Below are positions 4,762 through 61,060 of a stretch of 64,000 nt of DNA, in pieces. The notes beneath the pieces are model-generated. The model saw nothing but the letters and a program-made list of their open reading frames with translations, had not been told where the DNA came from and ran no database searches. The position numbers and the translations under genes are program-made. Position 1 is the first letter of the stretch, and every line of letters starts with the position of its first letter. The stretch is taken from contig NZ_VISL01000001.1 of assembly GCF_007827465.1 (NCBI RefSeq), forward strand, positions 1,755,001 through 1,819,000. The letters run 5' to 3'. The DNA comes from Dokdonia sp. Hel_I_53. Its GTDB lineage: Bacteria > Bacteroidota > Bacteroidia > Flavobacteriales > Flavobacteriaceae.

Positions 4762-5610
4762 GTGCAGGTTATCACCGCTCATCATAAAATTCAGACTCAT
4801 ATCCAAGAAGCAAAAACTTCTGGAAAAACCATCGGTTTTGTACCCACAATGGGTGCACTACATGAGGGTCATGCATCATTAGTAAATTATGCCAGCAAAG
4901 ACTGTGCCTTAGTTGTAGTAAGCATTTTTGTCAACCCAACGCAATTTAACAACGCATCAGATTTAGAAACATATCCCCGTACTTTAGATGCAGACGTGGC
5001 TTTTTTAAATGCGCTTTCAAAAGATATTATCATTTATGCACCATCTGCGAAAGAGGTATATGGGGACAACATATCTTCTGATGAATACAATTTTGGAGAG
5101 CTAGAAAATGTAATGGAAGGCGCTCACAGACCCGGACATTTTGATGGTGTAGGAACTGTTTTAAATAAGCTTTTTAGACAAATAAATCCAGATAGAGCCT
5201 ACTTTGGAGAAAAAGATTTCCAGCAGCTCGCTATAGTAAAACGTCTAGTAAAAAAGGAAAGACTCAGTGTAGAAATTATAGGATGCCCCATCTATAGAGA
5301 AAATAATGGACTGGCTATGAGTAGCCGTAACGCACGTTTAACACCTAAACAACTTACCGTCGCACCTTTCATCTACAAAACATTGAAGGAGGTAAAAAAA
5401 AGATTCCACAAAGATTCTGCTAGTGTTTTAAAAGATTTTGTACAACGTAAGTTTTCAGAGATAGAGAGTCTTGAGCTAGAATACTTTGAAATAGCAAATG
5501 CACAAAACTTACAACCGCTTTCGCGAAAGCGATCTGAAACAAAATACCGTGCTTTTCTAGCAGTCTATGCTGGAGAAGTAAGACTCATCGATAATATCGC
5601 CTTAAATTAG
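4762..5610 (+). CDS. panC: Pantoate--beta-alanine ligase (pantothenate synthetase)
   Basis: Joins pantoate and beta-alanine with ATP to give pantothenate for CoA. The 282-aa length is normal. Visible family motifs: PTMGALHEGHASL (HIGH-like), FVNPTQFN, GHFDGVGTVLNKLF, YFGEKDFQQL and MSSRNARL (KMSKS-like). Start codon is GTG at 4762; no better in-frame start precedes it. panD follows about 25 bp downstream, giving the last two pathway steps in one transcript. The genome's 16-bp palindrome lies in frame near the C-terminus and encodes LSRKR in the linker before the final beta-strands. Confidence 0.97.
   Translation: MQVITAHHKIQTHIQEAKTSGKTIGFVPTMGALHEGHASLVNYASKDCALVVVSIFVNPTQFNNASDLETYPRTLDADVAFLNALSKDIIIYAPSAKEVYGDNISSDEYNFGELENVMEGAHRPGHFDGVGTVLNKLFRQINPDRAYFGEKDFQQLAIVKRLVKKERLSVEIIGCPIYRENNGLAMSSRNARLTPKQLTVAPFIYKTLKEVKKRFHKDSASVLKDFVQRKFSEIESLELEYFEIANAQNLQPLSRKRSETKYRAFLAVYAGEVRLIDNIALN
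5516..5531. repeat. 16-bp palindrome, perfect copy inside panC
   Basis: CGCTTTCGCGAAAGCG. Read in panC as codons for L-S-R-K-R. Confidence 0.9.
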
Positions 5611-5634
5611 ACCAATTTCATACCTTTGCACTCT

Positions 5635-5985
5635 ATGTTAGTAAATGTTGTAAAATCGAAAATACACCGCGTTACAGTCACAGGCGCGGAGCTTCACTAT
5701 ATAGGGAGCATCACTATAGATGAGGACTTAATGGACGCAGCAAATGTGATTGAAGGAGAGCGCGTTCAAATTGTTAATGTAACAAATGGCGAGCGACTGG
5801 AGACGTATGCAATCCCAGGACCTAGAAAGAGTGGAGAAATTACCCTCAATGGCGCAGCAGCTAGGAAAGTAGCAAAAGGAGATATTCTTATCCTAATTGT
5901 CTATGCTTTTATGGAAGTTGAGGAGGCAAAAAAATTCAAGCCTACCTTGTGTTTCCCAAATGAAGATACAAATTTGCTCAATTAA
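5635..5985 (+). CDS. panD: Aspartate 1-decarboxylase precursor
   Basis: Makes beta-alanine from aspartate for PanC. The ATG at 5635 is chosen over the upstream TTG at 5626 because it places the self-cleavage Gly-Ser pair at residues 24-25 (LHYIGS), exactly as in E. coli PanD; Ser25 becomes the pyruvoyl group. The protein is 116 aa, and further conserved parts are [12 protein letters not shown] and [19 protein letters not shown]. Directly downstream of panC and 3 bp ahead of the next gene, so part of the same rightward unit. No PanM/PanZ maturation factor is visible in the window. Confidence 0.96.
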
Positions 5986-5988
5986 CAA

Positions 5989-6945
5989 TTGGCTTCCAAA
6001 AAATATTTAAATACAATTCTAAAGATCATACTCCCACTCGTGGGAGTTTTTTTAGTCTGGTATCAGCTCAGTAAAATGACTGCCCTCGAGCGTGATTCTA
6101 TGTGGGAAGCCATTATAGCGGTTAACCCTATTTGGATTATACTATCCATTCTTTTTGGAATTTTAAGTCATCTATCAAGAGCATATCGCTGGGGTTTTTT
6201 ACTGGAGCCATTAGGTTATAAACCAAGGTTAGCCAACAGTTTTATGGCTATCATGATAGGCTATTTTGCAAATACATTTGTCATCAGATCTGGAGAAGTA
6301 CTTCGGGCTGTTTCTCTTAGTAAAACTGATAACATACCTTTTGAAAAAGGCTTTGGAACCATAGTAGCTGGTCGTATAGCAGATCTTATTTTATTAATAA
6401 TTATTATGACTACTGCTGTGATGTTACAATCTACAGCCTTGATCTCCTACTTTAAGGAACACGCAAATCCTTTAGGATTTATGATCCTATTAATTTTGGG
6501 CATAGGTATAGGCATTTTAGGACTGCGATTACTTCAAAAATCATCCCACCCTCTTATTAAAAAAATCAGAGATTTTGGCTTAGGCTTACTAGATGGTGTA
6601 AAAAGTATTTTACACTTGAAAAATAATGCTGCATTCATATTTCACTCTCTTTTTATCTGGACCATGTACATTGGCATGTTTTGGATAATGAAGTTTGCAG
6701 TAGAAGGTACCTCTGAAGCTCCCTTTGGAGTTATCCTTGCAGCATTTGTAGTGGGCGGCTTTTCAATGAGTGCCACAAATGGTGGCACAGGATTGTACCC
6801 AATAGCCATGGCTGCGATTTTTTCGTTTTTTGGATATGAAGATGGAGCTACTTTCGGATGGTTATTATGGGGAACACAAACGATCTTTAATATACTAGTA
6901 GGAGGGATTTGCTCCTTGATTTTACTATTCTATAAGAAAGATTGA
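5989..6945 (+). CDS. Lysylphosphatidylglycerol synthase TM region / UPF0104 family membrane protein
   Basis: A 318-aa integral membrane protein with about eight hydrophobic segments, beginning with KIILPLVGVFLVWYQL. The middle has AYRWGFLLEPLGY and ANTFVIRSGEVLRAVSL, typical of the AglD/UPF0104 family related to the flippase half of MprF; the later SATNGGTGLYPIAMA segment also fits. No C-terminal transferase domain is present, so it is not a lysyl-PG synthase in itself; a lipid-transport role is inferred from the family. The start is TTG at 5989, 3 bp after the panD stop, since no in-frame ATG precedes the first membrane helix. The Bacteroidota gene order panC-panD-this gene is common. Confidence 0.85.
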   Translation: MASKKYLNTILKIILPLVGVFLVWYQLSKMTALERDSMWEAIIAVNPIWIILSILFGILSHLSRAYRWGFLLEPLGYKPRLANSFMAIMIGYFANTFVIRSGEVLRAVSLSKTDNIPFEKGFGTIVAGRIADLILLIIIMTTAVMLQSTALISYFKEHANPLGFMILLILGIGIGILGLRLLQKSSHPLIKKIRDFGLGLLDGVKSILHLKNNAAFIFHSLFIWTMYIGMFWIMKFAVEGTSEAPFGVILAAFVVGGFSMSATNGGTGLYPIAMAAIFSFFGYEDGATFGWLLWGTQTIFNILVGGICSLILLFYKKD

Positions 6946-6989
6946 TATTTTTAGTACTTTCACACCTTAAATCGTATAAAATAATCACT

Positions 6990-8135
6990 ATGAAGAATTA
7001 CCTTCTAATTCTAGCTTTCATATGTACGTATTATCCTACTCTTTCTCAAATTGATTATAAAGAAATACAATCTGAAAAACTTGGATCTACACGTCAACTC
7101 AAAATACAACTACCCCGTAATTATGATGAGAATCCAGAAAAATCATACCCTATTATAATTGTATTTGATGGAGATTATCTTTTTGAGCCTGTAGCGGGTA
7201 ACGTAGACTATTACAGTTATTGGGAAGAAATGCCTCAGGTAATCGTGGTAGGAATTAATCAAGATAGATCTCGAGAAGATGATACCTATTATGAAGATGT
7301 AAATTTTTTTCCTGCAGATACAGGCGTAGATTTTTTTGAATTTATAGGGATGGAATTAATGCCATATCTAGATAAAAATTATAGAACAACTAACTTTAGG
7401 GTAGCTGTGGGACACGACCTTACAGCAAACTTTATGAATTTTTATCTTATGAAAGACCCTGTGTTGTTCCAAGGATACATCTCTCTTAGTCCTGACTTAT
7501 CTGGAAAAATGGAGGAACGTATTACATCTAGGCTTTCTGTAATAGAACAAAAATTATTCTATTATTTAGCCACTGGCACTGATGACATAAGTGTACTAAG
7601 AGACCCTATTTTAGAACTCAACAGTAAGATAAAACAGATAGATAATGAAAGTTTACAATATAATTTTGACAACTTTCAAGGAGCAACTCACTACTCATTA
7701 GTAGGTAGAGCTATTCCAAAAGCATTAGAGAAAATGTTTTCTATTTATAGACCCATTAGCAAAAAAGATTATAATGATGTTATTTTAAAAAGTGATGCTC
7801 CTTATGATTACTTAGTTGATAAATATGACACTATAGAAACATTGTTTGGGTTAATTGACCCCATCAGAGTAAACGATTATATTGCTATTTCAACTGCATT
7901 AGAAAAGAAAGAGGATTGGGAAGCACTCGAAGAATTAGGAAAATTAGCAAGAAAGCAATATCCAGATACGATGCTTGGCAATTATTATATCGCTTTGTCA
8001 CTAGAAATGTTAGGGGAGCCTAAAAAAGCTATGAGAGCTTATCAAAATGCATTTCTTCTAGAAGAAGTGTCTTACATCACCAAGGATTTAATGCTTGAAA
8101 AATCTGATAAAATCAAAGAAGATTTTGGTTACTAA
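6990..8135 (+). CDS. Secreted esterase-like alpha/beta-hydrolase with Asp in place of the nucleophile Ser
   Basis: A putative-esterase (Fes/EsteraseD-like) fold: N-terminal strand LKIQLPRNYDENPEKSYPIIIVFDG, then EMPQVIVVGINQ, and the nucleophile-elbow region VAVGHDLTANFMNFYL. The family elbow GHSxGG reads GHD here, so the usual catalytic Ser is missing. The C-terminal third (about 290-382) looks helical and TPR-like (YIALSLEMLGEPKKAMRAYQNAF). The ATG at 6990 is preferred because it begins a clean signal peptide MKNYLLILAFICTYYPTLSQ; the longer frame from 6942 overlaps the previous gene by 4 bp. Probably periplasmic. A non-hydrolytic role is inference. Terminator follows. Confidence 0.8.
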   Translation: MKNYLLILAFICTYYPTLSQIDYKEIQSEKLGSTRQLKIQLPRNYDENPEKSYPIIIVFDGDYLFEPVAGNVDYYSYWEEMPQVIVVGINQDRSREDDTYYEDVNFFPADTGVDFFEFIGMELMPYLDKNYRTTNFRVAVGHDLTANFMNFYLMKDPVLFQGYISLSPDLSGKMEERITSRLSVIEQKLFYYLATGTDDISVLRDPILELNSKIKQIDNESLQYNFDNFQGATHYSLVGRAIPKALEKMFSIYRPISKKDYNDVILKSDAPYDYLVDKYDTIETLFGLIDPIRVNDYIAISTALEKKEDWEALEELGKLARKQYPDTMLGNYYIALSLEMLGEPKKAMRAYQNAFLLEEVSYITKDLMLEKSDKIKEDFGY

Positions 8136-8143
8136 TACAATTA

Positions 8144-8158
8144 CGCTTTCGCGAAAGC
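8144..8158. repeat. Palindrome copy (15 of 16 bases), intergenic
   Basis: CGCTTTCGCGAAAGC followed by A. Lies 8 bp after the esterase-like gene and before its terminator. Confidence 0.85.
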
Positions 8159-8175
8159 AACCAATAAAATTAAAA

Positions 8176-8350: not shown

Positions 8351-9721
8351 ATGGCAAAAACTAAAACAACTTTCTTCTGTCAAAACTGCGGTACCCAACA
8401 TGCAAAATGGCAAGGGCAATGTAATGCTTGTAAGCAATGGAATACCATTGTAGAAGAAGTTGTTCAAAAAGCTGATAAAAAAGACTGGAAATCTGATGCA
8501 AAAAAAGTTTCTGGGATTACACGCACCAGCAAACCTTTAAAAATTGCTGACATTTCAACAACTTCAGAGGCACGTATGAACACTAAGAATGGTGAACTTA
8601 ATCGTGTTCTTGGTGGTGGCTTGGTACCCGGATCACTCACTTTACTTGGCGGTGAGCCTGGAATAGGGAAGAGTACACTTCTTCTTCAAATATCGCTAGC
8701 ACTTCCCTATAAAACACTGTATGTGTCTGGTGAAGAAAGCCAACAGCAAATAAAAATGCGTGCAGAACGCATTAATCCTAATAGCGATCAGTGTTATATT
8801 CTTACGGAAACCAAGACACAAAATATTTTTCGTCATGTGGAAGAGATTCAACCTGATATAGTAATTATAGATTCCATACAAACGCTACATTCTGACCATA
8901 TTGAAAGTACCGCTGGAAGTATTTCTCAAATACGAGAAACCACCTCTGAACTTATTCGCTTTGCAAAAGAAACTGCAACACCTGTTATCCTGATAGGCCA
9001 TATTACAAAAGACGGGAATATTGCTGGGCCAAAAATTTTAGAACACATGGTAGACACCGTTCTTCAGTTTGAAGGTGATCGCAATCATGTATATCGCATC
9101 CTTCGTGCACATAAAAATAGATTTGGTAGCACAAACGAGTTAGGCATTTATGAAATGCAAGGCAGCGGTTTACGAGAAGTAAGCAACCCAAGTGAGATAC
9201 TTATTTCAAAAAATGAAGAAGAATTAAGTGGTACTGCCATAGCGACCACTATGGAAGGAATGCGTCCACTTATGATAGAGATACAGGCTTTGGTAAGCAC
9301 GGCAGTTTATGGTACACCACAACGTAGTTCTACGGGTTACAATGTAAAGCGACTTAATATGCTACTGGCTGTTCTTGAAAAAAGAGCTGGATTTAAATTA
9401 GGCGCAAAAGATGTTTTCCTGAACGTTACTGGAGGTATTTCTGTAGATGACCCTGCAATAGATCTTGCCGTAGTGGCAGCTGTGCTTTCAAGTAATGTAG
9501 ATATACCCGTAGATAAGTCTATGTGTTTTGCTGCAGAAATTGGTCTAGCCGGCGAAGTGCGACCCGTAAATCGTGTCGAACAACGTATTGTAGAAGCAGA
9601 AAAATTAGGATTCACTAGTATTGTGATTTCAAAATATTGTAAAATTCCAGATACAAATTATCATATTACAGTAATTAAAGTAGCAAAAGTACACGATGTG
9701 GTGAGACATCTTTTTGGCTAA
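8351..9721 (+). CDS. radA: DNA repair protein RadA
   Basis: RecA-family ATPase/helicase that drives branch migration in recombination; cytosolic. The 456-aa length fits. Visible parts: N-terminal C4 zinc finger (Cys10, Cys13, Cys24, Cys27), Walker A GGEPGIGKST at 100-109, Walker B-like DIVIIDSIQT, the RadA-specific KNRFG motif at 255-259, and a C-terminal Lon-like domain (from about 290; LNVTGGISVDDPAIDLA, with the inactive protease fold typical of RadA). Monocistronic by appearance: a terminator precedes it and the next gene starts 74 bp downstream. Confidence 0.98.
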   Translation: MAKTKTTFFCQNCGTQHAKWQGQCNACKQWNTIVEEVVQKADKKDWKSDAKKVSGITRTSKPLKIADISTTSEARMNTKNGELNRVLGGGLVPGSLTLLGGEPGIGKSTLLLQISLALPYKTLYVSGEESQQQIKMRAERINPNSDQCYILTETKTQNIFRHVEEIQPDIVIIDSIQTLHSDHIESTAGSISQIRETTSELIRFAKETATPVILIGHITKDGNIAGPKILEHMVDTVLQFEGDRNHVYRILRAHKNRFGSTNELGIYEMQGSGLREVSNPSEILISKNEEELSGTAIATTMEGMRPLMIEIQALVSTAVYGTPQRSSTGYNVKRLNMLLAVLEKRAGFKLGAKDVFLNVTGGISVDDPAIDLAVVAAVLSSNVDIPVDKSMCFAAEIGLAGEVRPVNRVEQRIVEAEKLGFTSIVISKYCKIPDTNYHITVIKVAKVHDVVRHLFG

Positions 9722-9795: not shown

Positions 9796-10944
9796 GTGAA
9801 AAACCGTTTCCTCTATTTTGTAATTATTGTTTTTTTGTGCCTAAGCTGCAATCAAGTACAGCAGGCGACAGATGCCATCACCCAGCCCTCGGCAAGAGAA
9901 GTGTATGCCCGATCTTTTGACAAAGCAGATAGTTTATATTTAAAATGGAATACCGCTTTCGCGAAAGCGTATAAAGACACCTCAAAATATCCTTTAGAAG
10001 AAATTAAACTAGAACTCCCACATACCACCGTTGGTCAATTTTCTGAATTAAATTTACAACCACTATCCTATACATTTAAATTATCGCAAGGAGAAATTCT
10101 AATTGCCGAAGTCTCAACAGAGGTGGATAGTAACCTTGTTTTTCTTGATTTATTTGAGTGGGAAAATGACAGTTTAATTGGTCAACAAATATTAAAGTCA
10201 AGTCAACGAGACGAAAAAGCTTTGAAATTTGAAGTAAAAAAAACAGCAAACTATGTTTTACTACTACATCCAGAGTTAGAAGCTTCCTCCTCTTTTTCTC
10301 TTAAAATATATAGTCAGCCTCAATATCAATTTCCGGTTAGTAATAAGGGAAATAAAGCAGTTCAAAGTTTTTGGGGTGACTCGCGAGGGGGAGGCAAACG
10401 CTCACACAAGGGTATAGACATTTTTGCCTCCCGCGGCACACCTGTAATCGCTAGTACAAATGGAATTGTAACCTCCACAGGAGAGAGAGGGTTAGGTGGG
10501 AAACAAGTATGGATAAGAGATGGCTTCTTTGGTCAATCCCTATATTATGCACATCTCGATAGCATTATCGCAAGGTCTGGGCAACGCGTAAAAATAGGAG
10601 ATACTTTAGGACTCGTGGTTAATACTGGTAATGCAAGAACAACACCACCCCATCTACACTTTGGTATTTATAATCGTAGCGGTGCTGTAAATCCGTATCC
10701 TTTTGTGAAGCACCAACAGATACCCAAGATAAATGATTCTCTTAATTCCAGTTTTGGAATAATCAAAAACCTAGCAAACTTAAGACTTCAACCTAATTCA
10801 AAAGGCTTAAAAATAGCACAGCTTAACAAGAATGATTCTGTACAGGTGGTTGAAAAATCTTCAAACTGGCTTCGGGTCTCAACGCAAGATTCCTTTAATG
10901 GATATATCTATAAAACCTCTATAAAATTGATTTCAAGCAATTAA
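9796..10944 (+). CDS. M23 (LytM-type) peptidase lipoprotein with SH3 domain
   Basis: A 382-aa lipoprotein (FVIIVFLCLSC lipobox) with a beta-rich N-terminal region, a LytM/M23 domain at about 185-310 and a bacterial SH3 domain at about 322-382. Zinc ligands are visible: His204 and Asp208 in SHKGIDIF, and HLHFG with His286 and His288; the YYAHLDS motif is also present. All catalytic residues seem intact, so peptidoglycan endopeptidase activity is likely, anchored to the outer or inner membrane. Start codon is GTG at 9796. A TAACTTTG -7-like box lies at 9763-9770. A palindrome copy sits in frame at 9954, encoding AFAKA in the helical N-terminal region. Confidence 0.9.
   Translation: MKNRFLYFVIIVFLCLSCNQVQQATDAITQPSAREVYARSFDKADSLYLKWNTAFAKAYKDTSKYPLEEIKLELPHTTVGQFSELNLQPLSYTFKLSQGEILIAEVSTEVDSNLVFLDLFEWENDSLIGQQILKSSQRDEKALKFEVKKTANYVLLLHPELEASSSFSLKIYSQPQYQFPVSNKGNKAVQSFWGDSRGGGKRSHKGIDIFASRGTPVIASTNGIVTSTGERGLGGKQVWIRDGFFGQSLYYAHLDSIIARSGQRVKIGDTLGLVVNTGNARTTPPHLHFGIYNRSGAVNPYPFVKHQQIPKINDSLNSSFGIIKNLANLRLQPNSKGLKIAQLNKNDSVQVVEKSSNWLRVSTQDSFNGYIYKTSIKLISSN
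9954..9969. repeat. 16-bp palindrome, perfect copy inside the M23 peptidase gene
   Basis: CGCTTTCGCGAAAGCG, read here in the frame giving A-F-A-K-A. Confidence 0.9.
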
Positions 10945-12384: not shown

Positions 12385-12400
12385 CGCTTTCGCGAAAGCG
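12385..12400. repeat. 16-bp palindrome, perfect copy, intergenic (20-bp extended form)
   Basis: Extended palindrome TACGCTTTCGCGAAAGCGTA at 12383-12402, between the acyl-CoA dehydrogenase stop and the terminator. Confidence 0.9.
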
Positions 12401-13553: not shown

Positions 13554-14534
13554 CTAATCAATATCATTAAGTAAAGCGTTTACTTCATCTAACTTTGGTG
13601 TTAATATAACCTCAATTCTTCGGTTTTTAGCTTTATTTTCTGCAGTATCATTTGGAACTACAGGTGCATATTCTCCACGGCCAGCTGCTGTCAAATTCTT
13701 TGGGTCAATATTACTATTCATTCGTAATATATTTACGATAGCAGTCGCACGCTTTGCCGAAAGATCCCAGTTACCTACTAAATTCCCACTACCTCCGTAA
13801 GGCACATTATCTGTGTGTCCTTCTATAAGTACAGCAATTTCAGGGTTTTGTGCAAGCACATTACCTAATTGTTTTACCGCTCTAGTACCATTTGCACCTA
13901 CAGTCCAGCTACCAGAGTCAAACAGTAATTTATTTTCTAGAGATACATATACTTTACCATCACGTTGCTCCACCGTAAGTCCTTTGCCTTCAAAATCTGT
14001 TAGTGCCTTTGAGATAGATTCTTTAAGATTGCGCATTTTTGCATCCTTTGCAGCGATTACTCCCTCTAGTTCATCTACGCGAGCAGATCGATCTGCTAAG
14101 TCTCTTTGTAGTTGTTCTAGTCTTTTACGTTCAGCTTCTAGTGCATTTGTCTTTGCGGTAAGATCGTTTTGCTTTGCTTCTAGTTGTGTAAGTAACTCAC
14201 GATTTTTTCTAGTATTCTCTGCTATAGTGGCACTACTATTTGATGCTAATGCCTCGTAACTACTCTGTAATTGTTCAAGTTGCGCTTTCGCGGAAGCGTA
14301 ATCACGCTCCATCTCTTCTACTTTAGTAGTAGACTCGCGAAGATCTTGTGAGACCTTGTCGTAAGCATTGTTAAGTTTTTCTAGTTCTCTGTTTGCTTCT
14401 TCAAGATCATCTGTGAGTGAGCGATTATCACCACGAAGTCGGTTAAATTGAGCCTCAAGGTCCGTATAACTTTTTCTAGATACACATGAGGTTAGTGTAA
14501 TTCCTGCTAGTAAGAGTATTGCTATTTTTTTCAT
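13554..14534 (-). CDS. OmpA-family lipoprotein with long coiled coil
   Basis: 326 aa: lipoprotein signal LLLAGITLTSC, then a long charged coiled coil (about 22-180) rich in Leu, Glu, Gln and Arg heptads, then an OmpA C-terminal peptidoglycan-binding domain (about 195-315). In the latter, LFDSGSWTV, EGHTDNVPYGG, NWDLSAKRATAIV and the NRRIEVIL end are the family motifs, with the Asp and Arg that bind diaminopimelate. It tethers the outer membrane to peptidoglycan. It starts 6 bp after xth. A one-mismatch palindrome copy (14283-14298) lies in frame in the coiled coil and encodes ASAKA. Confidence 0.92.
   Translation of the reverse strand: MKKIAILLLAGITLTSCVSRKSYTDLEAQFNRLRGDNRSLTDDLEEANRELEKLNNAYDKVSQDLRESTTKVEEMERDYASAKAQLEQLQSSYEALASNSSATIAENTRKNRELLTQLEAKQNDLTAKTNALEAERKRLEQLQRDLADRSARVDELEGVIAAKDAKMRNLKESISKALTDFEGKGLTVEQRDGKVYVSLENKLLFDSGSWTVGANGTRAVKQLGNVLAQNPEIAVLIEGHTDNVPYGGSGNLVGNWDLSAKRATAIVNILRMNSNIDPKNLTAAGRGEYAPVVPNDTAENKAKNRRIEVILTPKLDEVNALLNDID
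14283..14298. repeat. Palindrome copy with one mismatch inside the OmpA-family gene
   Basis: CGCTTTCGCGGAAGCG: one base breaks the symmetry. Coding frame on the minus strand gives A-S-A-K-A. Confidence 0.75.
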
Positions 14535-15384: not shown

Positions 15385-15426
15385 AAATGCATGTACTTTT
15401 TATTTAATATGTGAGTTTTACTATTG

Positions 15427-18400
15427 ATGCGACTAGGTCACTTTCTACTCTTCTTCATTTTTACTACAACAATTCTTGCACAAGAAGTACGAAGTAAAAA
15501 AATAGCTGTGCGTGAAACTGTTTTAATAGATACGGTTTCAATAAATCCGTTTCAGTTCAAAGTCCTCACTATAGATGGCGGAGTAGTAGACTCTACTTTA
15601 TATTCAATTAATTATCCTAAAAGTATTTTTTCGATTAAAGCGAAAAGAGAAAAACTTCCAGATTCTCTATTGATAACTTATCGCGTTTATCCAGAATTTT
15701 TGACAAAGACATACCGTGCATTTGATCCAGAGGTAATAGTTAATAGTTCTGGTTTATTAAATAAGGTAATTAGTCTAAATACAGAAGACAAAAGGAGCAT
15801 CACAACGCCCTTTTCTGGATTAAATGTAACTGGAAGCATTTTGAGGGGTGTTACCTCTGGCAATAATCAAAATAGCACAATAAACTCAGAACTAGACTTG
15901 CAAATAAGTGGAAAACTAAGCGAAAAAGTTACTCTCAGAGCATCTATACAAGACGCAAACATCCCTAGTCAGCAAGGAGGTTATTCACAAAATCTAGACG
16001 AATTTGATCAAGTTTTTATCGAATTACTTTCTAATAATTGGAAAATACGCGCAGGAGATATCAACCTTCAGAATTCTGAGTCCTATTTTGGGCAGTTCAC
16101 AAAAAAAATTCAAGGACTTTCACTAGGTGGCACTATTAACCATTCAGATACAAAAAAATCAGATTTATTTGCCTCTGGAGCTCTTGTACGTGGTGTATTT
16201 ACTCAAAGTATTTTTACAGGACAAGAAGGTAATCAAGGTCCTTATAAGCTAACAGGGCCTAACGGCGAACTTTTTGTATTAATTGTCTCAGGAAGTGAGA
16301 CTGTGTACGTAAATGGATTTCCACTCACACGCGGAGAATCTGAAGATTACGTCATAGACTATAACGCAGGAGAAATCCGTTTTAACCCTACCTATCCTAT
16401 AAATAGCGAAATGCGGATTAATGTAGAGTATCAATACTCTGAAAGACGTTATACTCGTTTTCTTGCCTATGGAGGTGGTAGCTTTCAAGAAAATGATAAA
16501 CTTAAAATTTCTGCGCATGTGTATTCAGAAAGTGATTCAAAAAACCAACCCTTACAGCAAAACCTTACCCAAGAGCAAGTGGCTATTCTTCAAGCCGCTG
16601 GAGATAATATGGATCAAATGATTGCACCTAGTGCCATTGCAGAGACTTATGATGAGAACAAAATTTTATACCGAAAAATATTAGTAAATGGAGTAGAAAC
16701 TTTTGAATTTAGCTCAGATCCAGACGAAAATCTTTTTCAAGTACGATTCACTAATGTAGGTGAGAATCAAGGTGACTATATTTTGAGCACAACAAACACG
16801 CTGCAACGAACTTTTGAGTATGTAAGCCCTGTTAATGGAGTTTCTCAAGGTTCTTTTGCTCCACAAGTCCAGCTATTTGCCCCCAGTCTTCTACAACTAG
16901 CTGTTATAAATGGAACTTATACTCCTTCTAATAAAACGCTCATAAATTTTGAGGCCGCTGGTAGTAAAAATGATATGAATACTTTATCTGATTTTGATGA
17001 CAATAATAATGATGGCTACGCCACGCACATAGATCTAAATCATCAATTATTTTCAAAAGATAGTGCTAAAACGCTCCACGTGTTTGGAAAATGGGATTAC
17101 ATACAAGAAAGTTTTCAAAACATTGAAGGTCTATATAACGTAGAGTTTAATCGCGATTGGAACTTAGAAAATTCGCTAGCAAACGCAAGTGGTAAATTAT
17201 TAGGTACTCAAAATTTTACAACATTAGGCCTTGCTTATAAGTCTATAAAAGACTTAAATATTGTATATACGTTTGAGAACTTGCATTTTTTAAATTACTA
17301 TAATGGACTAAAACATAACCTTCGGGGCGCTTGGTCTACAGGGAGTTTAAGGACATCTGTTACAGCAAGCACACTCACTACAAATGACACCCTACTCGAA
17401 ACTGATTTTAATCGTATAAATACCGTTGCTGTATATGATTTTAATAAAAAATGGATAGGCACACATTATCAACTTGAAGATAATTTAAGGGTCAATAAAA
17501 GAAATGATTCCATTACAGGAGATAGCCAACGCTTTTATGAATATGGTGCTTTTGCAGGAGTGGGGGATAGCACAAACGTATATATAGAATTGGGATATCG
17601 CTTTCGCGAAAGCGATAGTCTAAGACTTAATAGGATTACATCTGTCAATACATCGGACACATATTATTTAAAGTCACAACTCATAAAAAACGAAAAGACT
17701 AACTTATCTCTATTTACAAATTACAGAACGCTACACTATAGCGACGATCGTGAAGATGAAAATTCCCTGAATTCAAGATTACTATATGATCAGCAATTTG
17801 CGAATGGCATCGTACGAACGAATACGGTTTTTGAAACCAATAGCGGTACGCAACCACAACAAGAGTTTACATATTTACAAGTAGATGAAGGACAAGGTAC
17901 TTTCACTTGGAATGATTATAATAATGACACAGTACAGCAACTAGAAGAGTTTGAAATAGCGCAATTTCAAGATCAAGCTAAGTATATAAGGGTCTTATTA
18001 CCTAATCAAGTATTTGTACGTACTCATCAAAACAAAATAAGCCAGCAAGTTACACTCAACCCTTCACAATGGTCTGGAAAAAAAGGCGTTAAGAAATGGC
18101 TTGCTAGATTCTATAATCAAACTAGTTATCTGCTAGACAAACGAATATTAAGGTCTACAAATGATTTTAGGTTAAATCCTTATAAAGAATCTAAAGATGA
18201 GATTGGAGCTAATATCAGTTTTAGAAATACACTTTTTTTTAATCGTGGAAAACAACGGTATACCACATCGTACACGCTCCTCTCAAGTAACACAAAAAAC
18301 TTACTTTCTACTGGGTTACAAGAGAATGATTTAAAAAGTCATCAATTTAGTTTTTTACACAAAGTAAAGGAGAGTTGGCTATTTAATTTGAAAAGTGAGC

Positions 18401-18852
18401 TGGGTTTTAACCGTAGTGAATCTGAGAATTTTGCGCAGCGTAGCTTTGACTTAAAAACCACCAGCTGGAATCCTACAATCTCTTATTTATTTGGGAAGCA
18501 ATCACGTGCTTCTCTTTTTTATCAATTTCAACGTAAAGAAAATACTATTCAAGAAATGGAGTCTCTTTCCCAAAATAATATTGGTGTCTCCTTTGCGCTT
18601 GCAGATTATGAAAAAGTCTCTATTAATGGTGAGCTCAAGTATATTGAGAATAGTTTTGAAGGAAGTGCCTTTACTCCCGTTGCTTATCAAATTTTAGAAG
18701 GCTTGCAACCAGGCACGAATCTCACTTGGACTCTTGTAGCACAGAAAAGAATTACAAAATTTCTTGATTTAAATCTTTCTTATTTTGGAAGATCAAGTAA
18801 ATCTTCTCGAACAGTACATACAGGAAATGTGCAAATTAAGGCGTTCTTCTGA
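15427..18852 (+). CDS. Large uncharacterised outer-membrane beta-barrel-like protein
   Basis: 1141 aa from the ATG at 15427 (a TTG sits one codon upstream). Signal peptide ends at about ILAQ. The N-terminal 100 residues look like a small soluble domain. From about residue 130 the sequence alternates polar and hydrophobic residues as in an outer-membrane barrel, and the C-terminus ends in aromatic Phe (QIKAFF), typical of barrel proteins. ITTPFSGLNVTGSILRG, KVTLRASIQDANIPSQQGG and FDQVFIELLSNNWKIRAGD recall the DQ/GD-type motifs seen in part of SprA-like flavobacterial proteins, but it is half the length of SprA. Function unknown. A perfect palindrome copy lies in frame at 17599. Confidence 0.7.
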   Translation: MRLGHFLLFFIFTTTILAQEVRSKKIAVRETVLIDTVSINPFQFKVLTIDGGVVDSTLYSINYPKSIFSIKAKREKLPDSLLITYRVYPEFLTKTYRAFDPEVIVNSSGLLNKVISLNTEDKRSITTPFSGLNVTGSILRGVTSGNNQNSTINSELDLQISGKLSEKVTLRASIQDANIPSQQGGYSQNLDEFDQVFIELLSNNWKIRAGDINLQNSESYFGQFTKKIQGLSLGGTINHSDTKKSDLFASGALVRGVFTQSIFTGQEGNQGPYKLTGPNGELFVLIVSGSETVYVNGFPLTRGESEDYVIDYNAGEIRFNPTYPINSEMRINVEYQYSERRYTRFLAYGGGSFQENDKLKISAHVYSESDSKNQPLQQNLTQEQVAILQAAGDNMDQMIAPSAIAETYDENKILYRKILVNGVETFEFSSDPDENLFQVRFTNVGENQGDYILSTTNTLQRTFEYVSPVNGVSQGSFAPQVQLFAPSLLQLAVINGTYTPSNKTLINFEAAGSKNDMNTLSDFDDNNNDGYATHIDLNHQLFSKDSAKTLHVFGKWDYIQESFQNIEGLYNVEFNRDWNLENSLANASGKLLGTQNFTTLGLAYKSIKDLNIVYTFENLHFLNYYNGLKHNLRGAWSTGSLRTSVTASTLTTNDTLLETDFNRINTVAVYDFNKKWIGTHYQLEDNLRVNKRNDSITGDSQRFYEYGAFAGVGDSTNVYIELGYRFRESDSLRLNRITSVNTSDTYYLKSQLIKNEKTNLSLFTNYRTLHYSDDREDENSLNSRLLYDQQFANGIVRTNTVFETNSGTQPQQEFTYLQVDEGQGTFTWNDYNNDTVQQLEEFEIAQFQDQAKYIRVLLPNQVFVRTHQNKISQQVTLNPSQWSGKKGVKKWLARFYNQTSYLLDKRILRSTNDFRLNPYKESKDEIGANISFRNTLFFNRGKQRYTTSYTLLSSNTKNLLSTGLQENDLKSHQFSFLHKVKESWLFNLKSELGFNRSESENFAQRSFDLKTTSWNPTISYLFGKQSRASLFYQFQRKENTIQEMESLSQNNIGVSFALADYEKVSINGELKYIENSFEGSAFTPVAYQILEGLQPGTNLTWTLVAQKRITKFLDLNLSYFGRSSKSSRTVHTGNVQIKAFF
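17599..17614. repeat. 16-bp palindrome, perfect copy inside the outer-membrane protein gene
   Basis: CGCTTTCGCGAAAGCG, extended to ATCGC...GCGAT. Read as R-F-R-E-S between predicted strands. Confidence 0.9.
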
Positions 18853-23967: not shown

Positions 23968-23983
23968 CGCTTTCGCGAAAGCG
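23968..23983. repeat. 16-bp palindrome, perfect copy, intergenic (20-bp extended form)
   Basis: TACGCTTTCGCGAAAGCGTA at 23966-23985, 53 bp upstream of glyS. Nothing else recognisable in 23916-24090. Confidence 0.9.
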
Positions 23984-28251: not shown

Positions 28252-30162
28252 ATGCAGAACACTATTGCGCATCGCATTTACGATTTTCTAAAGCAATTTC
28301 CGCCATTTAGTTTTATGGCAAAAGAAGACTTACTAAACATATGTACACAAGCCACTGTAATTTATATTGATAAAGAAGATGTCCTTTTTGAGCGAGATGC
28401 AGTTTACAAGGATCGATTTTATATAGTACAACAAGGAGCCGTGAGACTTTCACGACCTTCTGGCGATCAGATTAAAGTGGTAGATATTTGTGATGAAGGA
28501 GATCTTTTTGGCTTAAAAGTAACCTCAGAAGATACCTATCGAACTACTGCTACAGCAAATGAGGAAACTATACTGTATACGCTACCTGTGGTGGAGTTTT
28601 CCGCTTTCGCGAAAGCGAATAAAACCATCTCCAATTATCTAATTGCTACTTTTGCGTCTAACATAAAAGATCCCTACACGCTTCAAAAAAGCGGTGCATT
28701 ATTTACTGAATATGAGCCAGAAAAAGGAGGTGACCTTCTTGGTTTTGAGCAAGCTAGATATAGCACAGATATTATTTCTTGCAGTCCTACTACATCTATT
28801 AAAAAAGCTGCCCAGTTGATGCAAGAGCATCAAATAGGATGTCTTGTTGTAACAATAAATAACATTCCACAAGGAGTGTTGACTAATCGTGAATTGCGTA
28901 ATGCAATTGCAAATGACATCCTTAAAGAAGAAACAACCGTGACTGATGTCATGGTTAACGATGTAGTATGCGCAGGTGTCAAGGTTACAGTCGCTGAGTC
29001 ACAACTATTATTATTAAAAAATGGTATTAGTCATTTAGTAATTACTCAAGATAGCACCCAACAAACTGAAGTAGTAGGCATATTGAGTAAGCACGACATA
29101 GTGGTGGCTTACGGTCACAGCCCTGGAGAATTGATAAAAGAAATAAAACGTGCGCCTAAAACTAAAATACTACGTCTAGCTTGGGAAAAGGCAATGATCT
29201 TACTTAAACGATATCTTGATCAAAATTTACCCTTATCTCATATTTTGAGCGTATTTGCTCCACTTAAAGATGCTTTGATTCAGCGTGCCATGGAGTTATC
29301 ACTGCGCAAGATGAAAGAGAGTCCACCAGTACCATTTGCCTGGCTATCACTAGGAAGTCAAGGTAGAGAAGAACAGCTTTTATACACAGATCAAGATAAT
29401 GCCATTATTTATACAGATGTGCCAAAAAACCAGTCTATAGCCATCAAATCCTATTTTCTAAAACTGGCTAATAGAATGAATAAACGTTTGCATAAAATAG
29501 GGTATGATTACTGCCCAGCAGATATGATGGCTAGTAATCCACTATATTGTTTATCACTATCTGAGTGGCAACATCAATTTGCTACTTGGATCACCAGCCC
29601 ATCTCCCGAGAGTATGCTGTTATCTGGGATCTTTTTTGACTATCGCTTTGTATATGGTGATAAAAAACTTGCAGAACAGCTTACTGCAGATATATTTAGT
29701 CGCCTACAAGAATCCTCTGTTTTTTTTAGATTTATGGCAAAGGATGCCCTTAAAAACCCACCACCTGTAAGTTTTTTTCGCAACTTTTTAGTAGAATCTA
29801 ACGGTGAACATAAAGACGAGTTTGACATTAAAAATCGAGCAATGGCTCCTCTCATAGGTGCCGCCCGCGTGTTGTCATTATATCATAATGAGCGTGGTAT
29901 ACATAATACCACAGCTAGGTTTGAAAAGCTGGCTGTTATCGAACCAAACAATAGTGAACTATATGAAAGCTGCGCGTATGCATTTAAAGCACTATTAAAA
30001 TTTAGAGTAAAGCAAGGCTTAGAAAATGGTACTAGCGGGAGGTTTATTACGCTTGCAAATCTATCTAAATCAGAACGTCTTAAGTTGAAACGTTGTTTCA
30101 AACCTTTAAGAGATGTTCAAGAATTAATACAAGTGAGGTTCCAAACGCAAAATCTAAGCTAG
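28252..30162 (+). CDS. cNMP-binding / CBS pair / DUF294 nucleotidyltransferase-like signalling protein
   Basis: 636 aa, cytosolic. Domains in order: cyclic-nucleotide-binding fold (about 12-135; FYIVQQGAVRLSRPSGDQ), two CBS motifs (about 165-290), DUF294 putative nucleotidyltransferase (about 325-470) with GSQGREEQLLYTDQD at 368-382 including Asp380 and Asp382 as metal ligands, and a DUF294 C-terminal helical domain (about 500-625). The combination suggests a nucleotide sensor with nucleotidyl transferase or uridylyltransferase-like output, but target is unknown. The stop TAG overlaps the GTG start of the next gene by one base, so the two are translationally coupled. A palindrome copy lies in frame at 28602 (AFAKA, end of the cNMP domain). 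Confidence 0.9.
   Translation: MQNTIAHRIYDFLKQFPPFSFMAKEDLLNICTQATVIYIDKEDVLFERDAVYKDRFYIVQQGAVRLSRPSGDQIKVVDICDEGDLFGLKVTSEDTYRTTATANEETILYTLPVVEFSAFAKANKTISNYLIATFASNIKDPYTLQKSGALFTEYEPEKGGDLLGFEQARYSTDIISCSPTTSIKKAAQLMQEHQIGCLVVTINNIPQGVLTNRELRNAIANDILKEETTVTDVMVNDVVCAGVKVTVAESQLLLLKNGISHLVITQDSTQQTEVVGILSKHDIVVAYGHSPGELIKEIKRAPKTKILRLAWEKAMILLKRYLDQNLPLSHILSVFAPLKDALIQRAMELSLRKMKESPPVPFAWLSLGSQGREEQLLYTDQDNAIIYTDVPKNQSIAIKSYFLKLANRMNKRLHKIGYDYCPADMMASNPLYCLSLSEWQHQFATWITSPSPESMLLSGIFFDYRFVYGDKKLAEQLTADIFSRLQESSVFFRFMAKDALKNPPPVSFFRNFLVESNGEHKDEFDIKNRAMAPLIGAARVLSLYHNERGIHNTTARFEKLAVIEPNNSELYESCAYAFKALLKFRVKQGLENGTSGRFITLANLSKSERLKLKRCFKPLRDVQELIQVRFQTQNLS
28602..28617. repeat. 16-bp palindrome, perfect copy inside the cNMP/CBS/DUF294 gene
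   Basis: CGCTTTCGCGAAAGCG read as A-F-A-K-A in the helix that ends the cNMP domain. Confidence 0.9.
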
Positions 30163-31461: not shown

Positions 31462-31617
31462 TTATGGAACTTTACTTCTATACATTTCTTTTACACTAAA
31501 GTAACGAGAGAACTCTGGTTTTCTGTACTCATCTAGTTTAAGTGGATTTGAAAATAGCTCGGTGAATTTAAGAGTACGCTTTCGCGATAGCATGATGGAG
31601 TCTGGCCACTTAAACAT
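31462..31617 (-). CDS. Possible small protein, 51 aa, partly built from a degenerate palindrome copy
   Basis: An ATG at 31617 opens 51 codons to a TAA at 31462-31464. The N-terminus MFKWPDSIMLSRKRTLKF includes the LSRKR reading of the degenerate palindrome (31577-31590); the rest is charged and aromatic (LFSNPLKLDEYRKPEFSRYF). It lies in a 324-bp gap (31352-31675) and is divergent from the following gene. No family recognised. Composition looks coding-like, but the length gives little certainty; it may instead be a gene relic. Confidence 0.35.
   Translation of the reverse strand: MFKWPDSIMLSRKRTLKFTELFSNPLKLDEYRKPEFSRYFSVKEMYRSKVP
31577..31590. repeat. Degenerate palindrome copy
   Basis: CGCTTTCGCGATAG: left arm intact, right arm altered. 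Confidence 0.55.
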
Positions 31618-32203: not shown

Positions 32204-32218
32204 CGCTTTCGCGAAAGC
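32204..32218. repeat. Palindrome copy (15 of 16 bases), intergenic
   Basis: CGCTTTCGCGAAAGC then A; between the YagU-like stop and its terminator. Confidence 0.85.
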
Positions 32219-32235
32219 ATTGCTATTTAAAGTAA

Positions 32236-36001: not shown

Positions 36002-36048
36002 ATTGAAATATTTAAAATTGTTGATTTAATGCAAATATGATTTAATTT

Positions 36049-36060
36049 GCTTTCGCGAAA
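36049..36060. repeat. Partial palindrome copy upstream of the 1228-aa gene
   Basis: GCTTTCGCGAAA followed by ACAG: the right arm has decayed. It occupies the same place as the intact copy at 40987 upstream of the paralog. Confidence 0.65.
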
Positions 36061-36177
36061 ACAGCGAAATTGCTGAAAACAGCGTTTGAACTGCTTAAAG
36101 GAAACAACACGTAAAGTTCAATTGCTGTCTAAAAAATCAAGAATTAAATTAATTTACACTGAGAATTGATTTAAAAA

Positions 36178-36203
36178 AAAGGGTTGCTATATAGCAACCC
36201 TTT
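36178..36203 (-). terminator. Terminator of the 1560-aa gene (copy 2 of a duplicated hairpin)
   Basis: AAAGGGTTGCTAT / ATAGCAACCCTTT, a 26-bp perfect palindrome with A-run and T-run, 55 bp beyond the stop at 36258. Same stem as 32236-32264. The rest of 36002-36257 holds no gene. Confidence 0.85.
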
Positions 36204-36257
36204 ATGGTTTATATACTAAAGTTACCTAAGCATACAAACACCCTTAAGTTATACAAC

Positions 36258-40940: not shown

Positions 40941-40986
40941 ATTGAAAAATTTAAAAAGTAAGTTTGATGCAAATATTCTTCAATTT

Positions 40987-41001
40987 GCTTTCGCGAAAGC
41001 G
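40987..41001. repeat. Palindrome copy (15 of 16 bases) upstream of the 1560-aa gene
   Basis: GCTTTCGCGAAAGCG, 46 bp before the start codon. Equivalent position to 36049-36060 in the paralog. Confidence 0.85.
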
Positions 41002-46825: not shown

Positions 46826-47686
46826 CTAGGCTATTAGAAGTTTATAACCCACCCCATGAACGTTAGTTATTTTAATTTGTGGATCGTCTTCTAACTTCTT
46901 ACGCAGTTTTGAGATGTATGTGTCCAGACTTCTACCTACAATCACACCGTGATCTTCCCACACAGCTTTAGTTATGACCTCTCGCGTTACTACTTGGTTA
47001 ACATTAGTTGCCAGTAATGTTAAAATCTCGCCCTCCTTCCTAGAGAGTTTAATGTCCTTATCTGCTACCACAAGTTTACTTTGTTCTTTATAGAATTGAA
47101 AGATTCCTAAAGTTTCATACTCTTGTACAAGTGGATTTTGAGTTGCTAGTTTTACGCTTTCGCGAAAGCGTACCCCAAGAAATATAAGTAGTCCCAGTGC
47201 GAGTGCTGCTATACTCACCTTACTTAGTGAAAGAGTTGTACTGCTGTCGTTAAAAGTGACTTCTATACGATGACATGCTTCAGGAACTTCTCGTCCTTTA
47301 CAGGGTACAATGGTTTTGTCCCAATTCGTATGCATTTGATAACTGTAAGAAATCTCTTGATCTTTACAGCGTACCACCTCAACGATATAATTTTTTGACA
47401 AGTCTGCTTTTTCAAAGTTACTATCCAAAAGTGCTACAAGACTATCTGGTAAAATGGCTATATCTCTCTCAAATGAAAGTTGAAACTGCTGTAAACCTAT
47501 TTCCTTAACTGGTAATACCAAACTAGAACTATCACCATCCAGCAACAAAAGCTCATTACCCGCATTACGCAGGGCAATTTTTACTCGTTCTGGTGTATTC
47601 CCGTGGCTAGGCTGTTCAAATGGAATCGCCCAAGAGAGAGTAATTAAACAAATGGCAGCTATACTTATGTAAAGACTATTTTTCAT
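46826..47686 (-). CDS. Membrane-bound winged-helix (OmpR/PhoB-type) regulator without receiver
   Basis: 286 aa from the ATG at 47686; the longer frame to 47758 has no ATG and no membrane signal before this Met. Layout: signal-anchor (SLYISIAAICLITLSWAI), a periplasmic domain (about 25-155) with three Cys, a transmembrane helix (about 160-178; ALALGLLIFLGV), then a cytoplasmic trans_reg_C winged helix (about 205-286; LSRKEGEILTLLATNVNQVVTREVITKAVW, RSLDTYISKLRKKL, GVGYKL). This is ToxR-like topology turned round: DNA-binding at the C-terminus. Divergent from the YceI gene, which it may control. A palindrome copy encodes RFRES right after the membrane helix. Confidence 0.88.
   Translation of the reverse strand: MKNSLYISIAAICLITLSWAIPFEQPSHGNTPERVKIALRNAGNELLLLDGDSSSLVLPVKEIGLQQFQLSFERDIAILPDSLVALLDSNFEKADLSKNYIVEVVRCKDQEISYSYQMHTNWDKTIVPCKGREVPEACHRIEVTFNDSSTTLSLSKVSIAALALGLLIFLGVRFRESVKLATQNPLVQEYETLGIFQFYKEQSKLVVADKDIKLSRKEGEILTLLATNVNQVVTREVITKAVWEDHGVIVGRSLDTYISKLRKKLEDDPQIKITNVHGVGYKLLIA
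47155..47170. repeat. 16-bp palindrome, perfect copy inside the winged-helix regulator gene (20-bp form)
   Basis: TACGCTTTCGCGAAAGCGTA at 47153-47172; coding frame on the minus strand gives V-R-F-R-E-S-V at the cytoplasmic edge of the membrane helix. Confidence 0.9.
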
Positions 47687-48422: not shown

Positions 48423-48438
48423 CGCTTTCGCGAAAGCG
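48423..48438. repeat. 16-bp palindrome, perfect copy, intergenic
   Basis: CGCTTTCGCGAAAGCG, 5 bp beyond the katG stop and just after the terminator. Confidence 0.9.
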
Positions 48439-54010: not shown

Positions 54011-54024
54011 TGTTGCTTTTTTTA

Positions 54025-54037
54025 TTTCGCGAAAGCG
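54025..54037. repeat. Partial palindrome copy, intergenic
   Basis: TTTCGCGAAAGCG (left end replaced by a TTTA run), upstream of the dCMP deaminase gene. Confidence 0.7.
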
Positions 54038-56896: not shown

Positions 56897-56898
56897 TC

Positions 56899-56911
56899 CG
56901 CTTTCGCGAAA
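56899..56911. repeat. Partial palindrome copy, intergenic
   Basis: CGCTTTCGCGAAA, right arm missing; 2 bp after the GNAT stop. Confidence 0.7.
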
Positions 56912-56946
56912 ATTTGAAAGCCTAAAATTAATTCGTAATGAAAATA

Positions 56947-56959
56947 TTTCGCGAAAGCG
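56947..56959. repeat. Partial palindrome copy, intergenic
   Basis: TTTCGCGAAAGCG, left arm missing; 48 bp after the previous partial copy and 16 bp before the aspartate kinase ATG. Together the two halves carry one full set of arms. Confidence 0.7.
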
Positions 56960-58297: not shown

Positions 58298-58305
58298 TAT
58301 ATTTG
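58298..58305 (+). promoter_or_regulatory. Candidate -7 box for the bifunctional acyltransferase gene
   Basis: TATATTTG matches TAnnTTTG, 23 bp before the ATG. No -33 TTG at usual spacing. Confidence 0.4.
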
Positions 58306-58328
58306 TTATCTAATATTCTTTTAAAAAT

Positions 58329-60155: not shown

Positions 60156-60159
60156 AAAA

Positions 60160-60942
60160 TTAGCTAGATTGTGAAACCACAAGGCTGCTATATTTTGCCT
60201 TGATAATCATAAAAACTCCATAGCCAACTAATCCAAGAGCTACAATACCCATAACAATAGACCCAAATTCGTCTTGAATAAAACTAAAAGCGTCTGTTTT
60301 ACTAAGCTTTTGAGCATTATCACCTAGACCAGCTTTTACAAAAAGAAAGCCAAGTACACCTGCAACAATACCCCTCGAAGTATATCCTACTTTACCAGCT
60401 TTCATAATAAATTTTTGAGCTCTATGATCAAGGCCAGCAGACTCAACTTCATCTTTAAATTTACCTGAATAACCTTGATAAAATTCATAGACACCTTTTC
60501 CTACTAATATCAACCCAATAATTATAGCACTTGCAGTGGCATATTCTGAATTAAAAAGTTTAGAAAAAAATGAATTTCCTCCTTGAGAATTGTCTCCCAT
60601 TACAATTTTTATGGCTGTATAGGCCAGTGAGCCATAAAGAATACCACTCACAAAATATGCAACTCTTTTTATAATGCCCTTACTGTCGTTATCTAAGTTG
60701 TTTGGATTTGCAATTGCTTGATACCACCTCCAGAAGACATACCCTAAAAGACCTATAGCTAATACAATAAGTATAAATTTTCCATAAGATTGAGAGGATA
60801 GGAATTCTAAAACAGTTGTAGAGTTAGATTTTTTACCTCCGTATCCAAAGGCTGTCATAGCAGTCAAAAGACCTATTATAAAATAAACAATTCCTTTTGT
60901 TGCAATTCCAAAGCTGGCAAGACGTTCTCTTTTACTACTCAT
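60160..60942 (-). CDS. DUF1206 domain membrane protein
   Basis: 260 aa with six membrane helices arranged as three DUF1206 repeats, each starting with a similar amphipathic turn: FGIATKGIVYFIIGLL, RVAYFVSGILYGSLAYTAI and KVGYTSRGIVAGVLGFLFV, each followed by a second helix (IVLAIGLLGYVFWRWYQA, IIGLILVGKGVYEFYQGY, IVALGLVGYGVFMIIKA). Function unknown. Its stop lies 4 bp from the acyltransferase stop, with no terminator between. Confidence 0.93.
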   Translation of the reverse strand: MSSKRERLASFGIATKGIVYFIIGLLTAMTAFGYGGKKSNSTTVLEFLSSQSYGKFILIVLAIGLLGYVFWRWYQAIANPNNLDNDSKGIIKRVAYFVSGILYGSLAYTAIKIVMGDNSQGGNSFFSKLFNSEYATASAIIIGLILVGKGVYEFYQGYSGKFKDEVESAGLDHRAQKFIMKAGKVGYTSRGIVAGVLGFLFVKAGLGDNAQKLSKTDAFSFIQDEFGSIVMGIVALGLVGYGVFMIIKAKYSSLVVSQSS

Positions 60943-61044
60943 TGTATATCATTTTCATGCAATTTATTTTAAAATAAAGAGAAGTGTACTAATTTTTAGA
61001 TACTTTATTATTTATTGTTAAAGAAATGTTGGGAAATTAACTTA

Positions 61045-61060
61045 CGCTTTCGCGAAAGCG
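61045..61060. repeat. 16-bp palindrome, perfect copy, intergenic (20-bp extended form)
   Basis: TACGCTTTCGCGAAAGCGTA at 61043-61062, between the DUF421 stop and the DUF1206 start. Confidence 0.9.

Follow-up and report, generated by a model that had tools for sequence, protein, structure and literature searches.

In the 64,000-nucleotide stretch of Dokdonia sp. Hel_I_53 DNA analyzed here (contig NZ_VISL01000001.1, positions 1,755,001 to 1,819,000; hereafter the window), a GC-rich palindrome recurs in genes and between them. The window is part of a single-contig genome of 2.93 Mb (G000) that carries 452 copies of the palindrome in its 16-bp form, 700 copies of the inner 14-mer GCTTTCGCGAAAGC and 832 copies of the core TTTCGCGAAA, compared to 0, 0, and 13 matches, respectively, for the same patterns read backwards. 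An earlier note on this DNA had described a highly iterated palindrome without strand polarity and suggested a genome-wide count; the 16-mer is indeed a perfect palindrome, and the counts show that the observation is real and larger than first described. Rather than a number near expectation or an absence from close relatives, the 452 copies are accompanied by positive results in all 18 Dokdonia genomes searched, with 138–711 16-mers each. Very likely, selection maintains the palindrome as the recognition site of a chromosome-wide system, and we infer that a sequence-specific machine for DNA processing reads the sites. The evidence presented below points to an undescribed protein that reads these sites to maintain the chromosome.

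The true unit is the 14-mer and not the 16-mer. In a 464-kb sample composed of twenty 20-kb stretches of the genome and the window (about 16% of the genome), the core occurs 131 times against an independent-base expectation of 0.52, followed by CTTTCGCGAAAG (116), GCTTTCGCGAAAGC (113), the 16-mer (81), and the longer forms of 18 bp (35) and 20 bp (25). The same sample contains 35 one-mismatch 16-mers beside the 81 perfect copies, with the change at the outermost base in 28 of them and elsewhere in only seven. The site is thus a rigid 14-bp palindrome formed by the core and its GC arms, with a preference for TA extensions. Dokdonia and Nonlabens sequences, in which some copies are orthologous, contain 280 full 14-mers and 41 partial sites, a count that leaves out copies with a broken core, such as the one at 14283 of the window. 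Since each of the 41 partial sites has an intact core with a single GC arm, and none has lost both arms, the recognition unit may be directional. In 10 other genera, 20-kb samples contained no palindrome of 12–14 bp more than once.

The copies are also far more evenly spaced than random positions would be. The mean gap among the first 100 cores of G000 is 3.48 kb, in agreement with the spacing of roughly 3–4 kb proposed earlier, and the coefficient of variation (CV) of these gaps is 0.54 against 0.98 for random placement, a value that none of 20,000 simulations reached. The smallest gap is 651 bp, two of the 99 gaps are shorter than 1 kb, and the variance-to-mean ratio of counts per 17.3 kb is 0.27. 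Seven stretches pooled from six genomes, some of which are close relatives, gave CVs of 0.59 for cores and 0.56 for 14-mers (0 of 2,000 simulations as low), and only 4% of the 14-mer gaps fell below 1 kb compared to 23% of those simulated. Moreover, the twenty 20-kb samples taken round the chromosome hold 2–9 cores each, with no regional bias in the samples.

Individual sites keep their positions in related genomes. Between G004 and G007 (93% identity), 46 of 49 aligned 14-mer sites are kept in one direction (four more unaligned) and 46 of 48 in the other; between G004 and G005 (88% identity), 46 of 49 are kept (four unaligned), and of 54 in the reverse comparison, 46 are kept as 14-mers and 50 as cores (five unaligned); between G001 and G016 (94% identity), 22 of 22 and, in reverse, 22 of 23 (11 unaligned). 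Random aligned 14-mers are identical in 48, 28, and 55% of cases for the 93, 88, and 94% pairs, respectively. At the 88% level the aligned pairs reveal a footprint of 14 bp, with an identity of 0.96–1.00 per position against about 0.76–0.98 in the flanks. Conservation extends to more distant genomes, where 24/27 (77% identity), 36/41, and 32/38 cores are kept at 77–81% identity and 9/10, 9/11, and 4/5 of the window cores at 73–74% identity, counts that include opposite-strand mappings (an offset of 9 being the same palindrome) as well as sites within the corresponding syntenic gap. The core of the site at 5516, which lies in panC in a stretch of 68–74% identity, is co-located in all 15 alignable other Dokdonia genomes; two of the 17 loci did not cover this site, and the other four sites of the stretch were not covered or alignable.

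Among ten differing sites listed, seven have changed by one or two substitutions, one corresponds to a gap, and the remaining two fall in stretches of higher divergence. We read this pattern as site-by-site purifying selection and not as drift or transposition. A mobile element, including the REP-like (repetitive extragenic palindromic) miniature element offered as one explanation in the earlier note, is rejected on account of the orthologous positions kept, the mostly small substitutions that separate the genomes, and the lack of any conserved sequence outside the site, where only a base preference was found. Between genera, the site was co-located in only two of 11 Nonlabens–Dokdonia pairs (one of the 10 queries with a match, of 43) and in neither of two pairs between the third genus carrying the motif and Dokdonia (15 queries, none with a Nonlabens match); the positions have therefore turned over between genera.

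The base preference of the flanks is strand-asymmetric. Read 5′ to 3′ into the palindrome on each strand, a flank of about 15 nucleotides (nt) is C-poor and G/T-rich, at coding and intergenic sites alike. At flank positions 4–18, C accounts for 7% of the bases in Dokdonia and 6% in Nonlabens against a background of 18%, and the bias fades by about 20–30 bp. T is most frequent 4, 7, 10, and 13 bases from the 14-mer, that is, at every third base, and the strength of this 3-nt phase was matched by none of 2,000 permutations within sites, whether in Dokdonia (486 half-sites), in its intergenic subset (122), or in Nonlabens (114). The flanks of the two genera are largely independent replicates because the site positions mostly differ between them. 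No covariation was detected between left and right flanks, and an extension of the stem by the flanks was consequently rejected.

Regarding gene context, a simple hexamer gene caller applied to the 464 kb placed 54 of 113 14-mers in genes, although genes make up 89% of the sequence, so that spacers are enriched more than fourfold. Convergent spacers, which represent about 11% of the intergenic length, hold 13 of the 57 non-edge intergenic 14-mers. Stop codons lie at most 30 bp away from 38% of the 69 intergenic cores and from 13% of random intergenic points; for starts, the corresponding shares are 10% and 15%. Some coding copies are translated as AFAKA, which in a CusC-like protein lies within the signal peptide (labels given by eye).

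Within the window, the nine perfect 16-mers previously reported are all present at the positions named, and the 20-bp form TACGCTTTCGCGAAAGCGTA was recovered at the four copies said to carry it (12385, 23968, 47155, and 61045). The near-copies at 8144, 14283, 32204, and 40987 are single-mismatch sites, the last one starting at 40986, and the half copies correspond to partial copies at 31577, 36048, 54022, 56899, and 56944, three starts being corrected from 36049, 54025, and 56947. The claim that such a 16-mer would be rare by chance also held, as the window has 18 matches with three or fewer mismatches against a mean of 0.08 (maximum 1) in 100 shuffles. The copies, none of which has a strand, are as follows:

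5516..5531, perfect 16-mer within panC (Pantoate_ligase, 4762-5610, + strand)
8144..8159, 14-mer site with one outer mismatch, directly past the end of an open reading frame
9954..9969, perfect 16-mer close to the 5′ end of an M23 peptidase gene
12385..12400, perfect 16-mer with TA/TA extension, convergent genes on both sides
14283..14298, decayed copy with one interior mismatch, core broken
17599..17614, perfect 16-mer, coding (15424-18852, + strand)
23968..23983, perfect 16-mer with TA/TA extension, intergenic, tandem genes
28602..28617, perfect 16-mer, coding, DUF294/CBS protein
31577..31592, decayed copy with two mismatches
32204..32219, 14-mer site with one outer mismatch, past the end of an open reading frame, convergent
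36048..36063, partial site with core and one GC arm
40986..41001, 14-mer site with one outer mismatch, intergenic
47155..47170, perfect 16-mer with TA/TA extension, coding, Trans_reg_C protein
48423..48438, perfect 16-mer, convergent genes on both sides
54022..54037, partial site with core and one GC arm
56899..56914, partial site, directly past the end of an open reading frame
56944..56959, partial site with the other arm intact, 45 bp from the 56899 site
61045..61060, perfect 16-mer with TA/TA extension, intergenic, tandem genes

Two neighborhoods in the window merit description. A RadA/Sms-like ATPase gene (8351-9721, + strand; AAA_25, Zn ribbon, and ChlI/Lon_C matches, from which the name was inferred) is flanked by two palindrome sites, a placement that is probably due to chance. 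In addition, positions 32315-40940 (− strand) encode two neighboring, very long secreted proteins. Both have the domains Laminin_G_3, HYR, and Por_Secre_tail, and the pair may be a tandem duplication of surface proteins of the type IX secretion system.

In the genomes sampled, high copy numbers of the palindrome are restricted to three genera of marine flavobacteria. In a family sample of 397 genomes from 231 genera, 48 genomes had at least one 16-mer, and more than 13 copies were found in only six of them: two Dokdonia, three Nonlabens (448–579 copies), and G202 (153 copies), the representative of a third motif genus (g186) with a GC content of about 45% in the sample. The remaining 42 positive genomes have 1–13 16-mers. 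In an order sample, 13 of 147 genomes were positive for the 14-mer, none with more than four copies apart from G000. Among the matches listed in a GTDB scan, which is illustrative only, two or more copies occurred in Dokdonia, Nonlabens, Flavobacteria bacterium BBFL7, and one Aquimarina record. When 385 proteins were compared with 55 loci, 29 had a match, and the best match was to Dokdonia for 20 (median identity 75%) and to Nonlabens, with which BBFL7 was counted, for nine (63%).

The low-copy genomes richest in the 16-mer are G296 (13 copies) and G093 (12), both of genus g77, and G068 (11). A 160-kb portion of genus g77 contained no core, and the only 12–14-mer palindromes that it held two or three times were AT-rich; the copies of g77 and G068 may be clustered on mobile DNA. 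Of 20 regions surrounding copies in low-copy genera, 19 share more than 400 bp at 67% identity or higher with another of 25 sequences, and these shared regions form at least two groups. Locus L021, in the larger group, encodes efflux-like and metal-binding-like proteins, as judged by the look of the sequences, and given this gene content the low-copy sites of that group probably moved between genera with a copper-resistance-like region. Two near-identical copper-type regions (L025 and L026) have about 80 extra bases (L026:10085-10176), including GAAGTTTATGCTGAGCGAAGACGAAGTG, inside the palindrome of the CusC-like signal peptide; we take GAAGTTTATGCTGAGCGAAGACGAAGTG to resemble a repeat of flavobacteria.

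The palindrome was also searched in viral sequences, yielding at least 120 stretches, of which at least 11 have two or more 14-mers, eight of those with a GC content below 0.42. Of six phage-like loci inspected, L237, L172, and L258 encode portal, capsid, or terminase proteins or have a tape-measure match, L186 matches a tape-measure protein weakly, L264 encodes a primase, and L203 a protein with a depolymerase-like domain. The Nonlabens phages P12024S and P12024L (35.7 kb each), which according to their annotation carry ERF and YqaJ recombination proteins of their own, contain neither the core nor TCGCGA, a hexamer that base composition would lead us to expect three to four times per phage. 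This is weak evidence for avoidance because the two phages are related.

Candidate reader proteins were sought by profile searches of 44 genomes, 14 of them motif-rich and 30 others. RecC was found in none, and an AddB-like PDDEXK match was found in all 44, which led us to reject AddAB as the cause of the limited taxonomic range; a second, AddA-like PDDEXK match is present in 39. The Nonlabens AddB sequences (L362, L397, and L398) lie on a very long tree branch and in G396 the AddA-like match is on a different contig from AddB; the Nonlabens pair may have been separated or diverged. One branch of the AddB tree has the three motif genera together on the same side; that branch is weakly supported (28/91, 25% of bootstrap trees), and a single origin is possible.

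The suggestion that the palindrome is a methylation target is disfavored, since none of the three methylase families searched (Type I, IIG, and III enzymes were not searched) is common to the 14 motif-rich genomes, and these families are rejected as the reader: C5 methylases occur in seven of the 14 motif-rich and 16 of the 30 other genomes, N6_N4_Mtase passes the cut-off in two and MethyltransfD12 occurs in eight of the motif-rich genomes, and in G004, G007, and G252 none of the three passes the cut-off. Likewise, a Noc-like ParB duplicate was not seen: each of the 44 genomes has exactly one full-strength HTH_ParB match, an extra weak match being limited to G002, G013, and five of the 30 other genomes.

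What the sites do can be framed in several ways. Our best guess, held tentatively, is a two-way Chi-like genome-maintenance site. A break-processing AddAB-like enzyme would meet the site from either side and stop or switch on reaching it, so that a 3′ tail ending at the palindrome remains, and RecA-type filaments would then nucleate on the phased G/T-rich flank. RecA-type filaments hold DNA in triplets, and 15 nt correspond to five or so protomers. Being a palindrome, the site would work both ways and need no replichore orientation, and selection to keep one site or more in every few kb would produce the even spacing. Chi-like action would in this manner explain the density, the absent polarity, the triplet phase, and a strand rich in G and T that runs up to the site. 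In its favor are the even spacing, the purifying selection on positions, the strand-asymmetric flanks, the one-armed partial sites, the AddB-like matches in all 44 genomes with RecC in none, a higher identity near sites in one of four genome pairs, the sites in the copper-resistance-like region and in phage-like contigs, and the lack of sites in two Nonlabens phages with recombination proteins of their own. An extension of the idea, in which evenly spaced two-way milestones with triplet-phased G/T-rich loading zones on both sides mark the chromosome as self and guide a machine for end processing and strand exchange from either direction, mobile DNA that lives in these hosts acquiring the marks, is unlikely.

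Several observations weigh against the Chi-like reading. Described Chi sites are short (5–8 nt) and not palindromic, and the motif occurs in three genera only although AddB-like proteins are present in all 44 genomes. The AddA and AddB labels rest on length and adjacency, and the AddA-like match is missing in two of three Nonlabens (G027 and G252), although the family model matches AddA-like proteins weakly and its silence is no proof of absence; this missing match slightly lowers our confidence in the reading. The reader protein was not found among the families searched. In addition, of the nine periods tested in Nonlabens, period 3 (0.79) ranks first but 10.5 (0.71) comes close, and G202 (28 half-sites) shows no 3-nt phase and only a weak C depletion (16%). 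The recombination expected around such sites is not apparent either: identity in G001/G016 is 0.955 at 100–800 bp from the sites and 0.85–0.89 beyond 2 kb, but no such fall is seen in the other three of four genome pairs, and the flanks at a distance of 12–50 bp diverge more than shifted controls do in two of the four. A divergence hot-spot signature was thus not upheld, as identity falls with distance in one pair only.

The main rival, doubtful on its own but nearly as likely as Chi-like action, is the binding site of a lineage-specific nucleoid-organizing protein similar to MatP, SlmA, or Noc, which as a dimer would condense or bridge the chromosome at regular intervals. The chromosome-organizing protein site of the earlier note survives to the extent that a chromosome-level protein site is the remaining class, its nucleoid role being this rival. 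A fully specified palindrome of such length is typical of these proteins, and the chromosome-wide spread (2–9 cores per 20-kb sample), even spacing, and positional conservation agree with it, but known systems have tens of sites, often in one part of the chromosome, the one-strand C depletion with its 3-nt phase is unlike ordinary double-strand recognition, no Noc-like ParB paralogue was seen in 44 genomes, and sites are also found on mobile DNA. A DNA uptake sequence for natural transformation, built up by biased uptake and recombination, is improbable. Near-matches would be expected in plenty, whereas seven non-outermost one-mismatch copies stand here beside 81 perfect ones, and positions are very stable within the genus and sites occur in phage-like contigs, even though density, even spacing, and the proximity of intergenic cores to stop codons (38 vs. 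13%) would fit. A preference for uptake of own DNA, which would also favor this explanation, is reported for Riemerella columbina (PMC7965970).

A signature resembling HIP1 (highly iterated palindrome 1), left by a methylation-coupled repair ratchet, is very improbable: it would account for a GC-rich, highly iterated palindrome in genes and spacers, and single deviations fall mostly at the outer base (28/35), as described for HIP1 by Elhai (PMC4390886), but no methylase among the three families is common to the 14 motif-rich genomes, and a ratchet leaves the even spacing, 14-bp length, and phased flanks unexplained. Least probable of all is an RNA-level element, either a processing site or a 3′-end hairpin. 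The palindrome folds in either transcript and is enriched directly after stop codons and between convergent genes (13/57), but 54 of 113 14-mers are inside genes, the flanks do not covary to lengthen the stem, the window has no Rfam match, and no T tract follows the palindrome, whose 3′ side is A/C-rich.

Neither the palindrome sequence nor such a system appeared in the literature searched, which covered few subscription papers; judged by title, no work on uptake sequences in Flavobacteria concerned the motif genera, and none was found joining Chi, RecA, GT-rich DNA, and AddAB. Some 830 evenly spaced cores, individually conserved where tested, indicate a whole-chromosome function written in a readable DNA code, and the reader protein could bring to light a new mechanism by which a bacterium organizes, repairs, or recognizes its own chromosome. 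Besides, the palindrome may serve as a marker of Dokdonia/Nonlabens DNA in mobile elements and metagenomes.

Compared with known systems, the palindrome resembles HIP1 (GCGATCGC) and the alternate HIPs of cyanobacteria in being GC-rich, hugely over-represented, present in genes and spacers, and taxon-restricted, but it is 14 bp long instead of 8, evenly spaced, position-conserved, and bordered by asymmetric 3-nt-phased flanks, without a common methylase among the three families searched. Chi sites of RecBCD/AddAB, as generally known, similarly occur once per several kb throughout the genome with a G/T-rich strand into the site, and an AddAB-like enzyme is present here too, whereas the Dokdonia site is palindromic, longer, without orientation, and confined to three genera. 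The DNA uptake sequences (DUS) and uptake signal sequences (USS) of Neisseriaceae and Pasteurellaceae are likewise found in hundreds of copies genome-wide, often near gene ends, but the present site is palindromic, has few near-matches, and holds mostly stable positions at 73–81% DNA identity. The sites of MatP (matS), SlmA, Noc, and ParB are likewise palindromes of similar length with every base specified, placed in genes and spacers; in Dokdonia there are roughly 10-fold more copies than in those systems, no regional bias in the samples, phased flanks, and no second full-strength ParB. REP elements with their associated transposases (RAYT) and other palindromic mini-elements have a repeated palindrome in common with it, which here lacks any signature of insertion or fast turnover within the genus, lies about half in genes, and has no conserved outer sequence. 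Overall, no known kind considered fits every tested feature, and the even spacing, the stable positions, and the strand-asymmetric 3-nt-phased flanks are newly seen properties.

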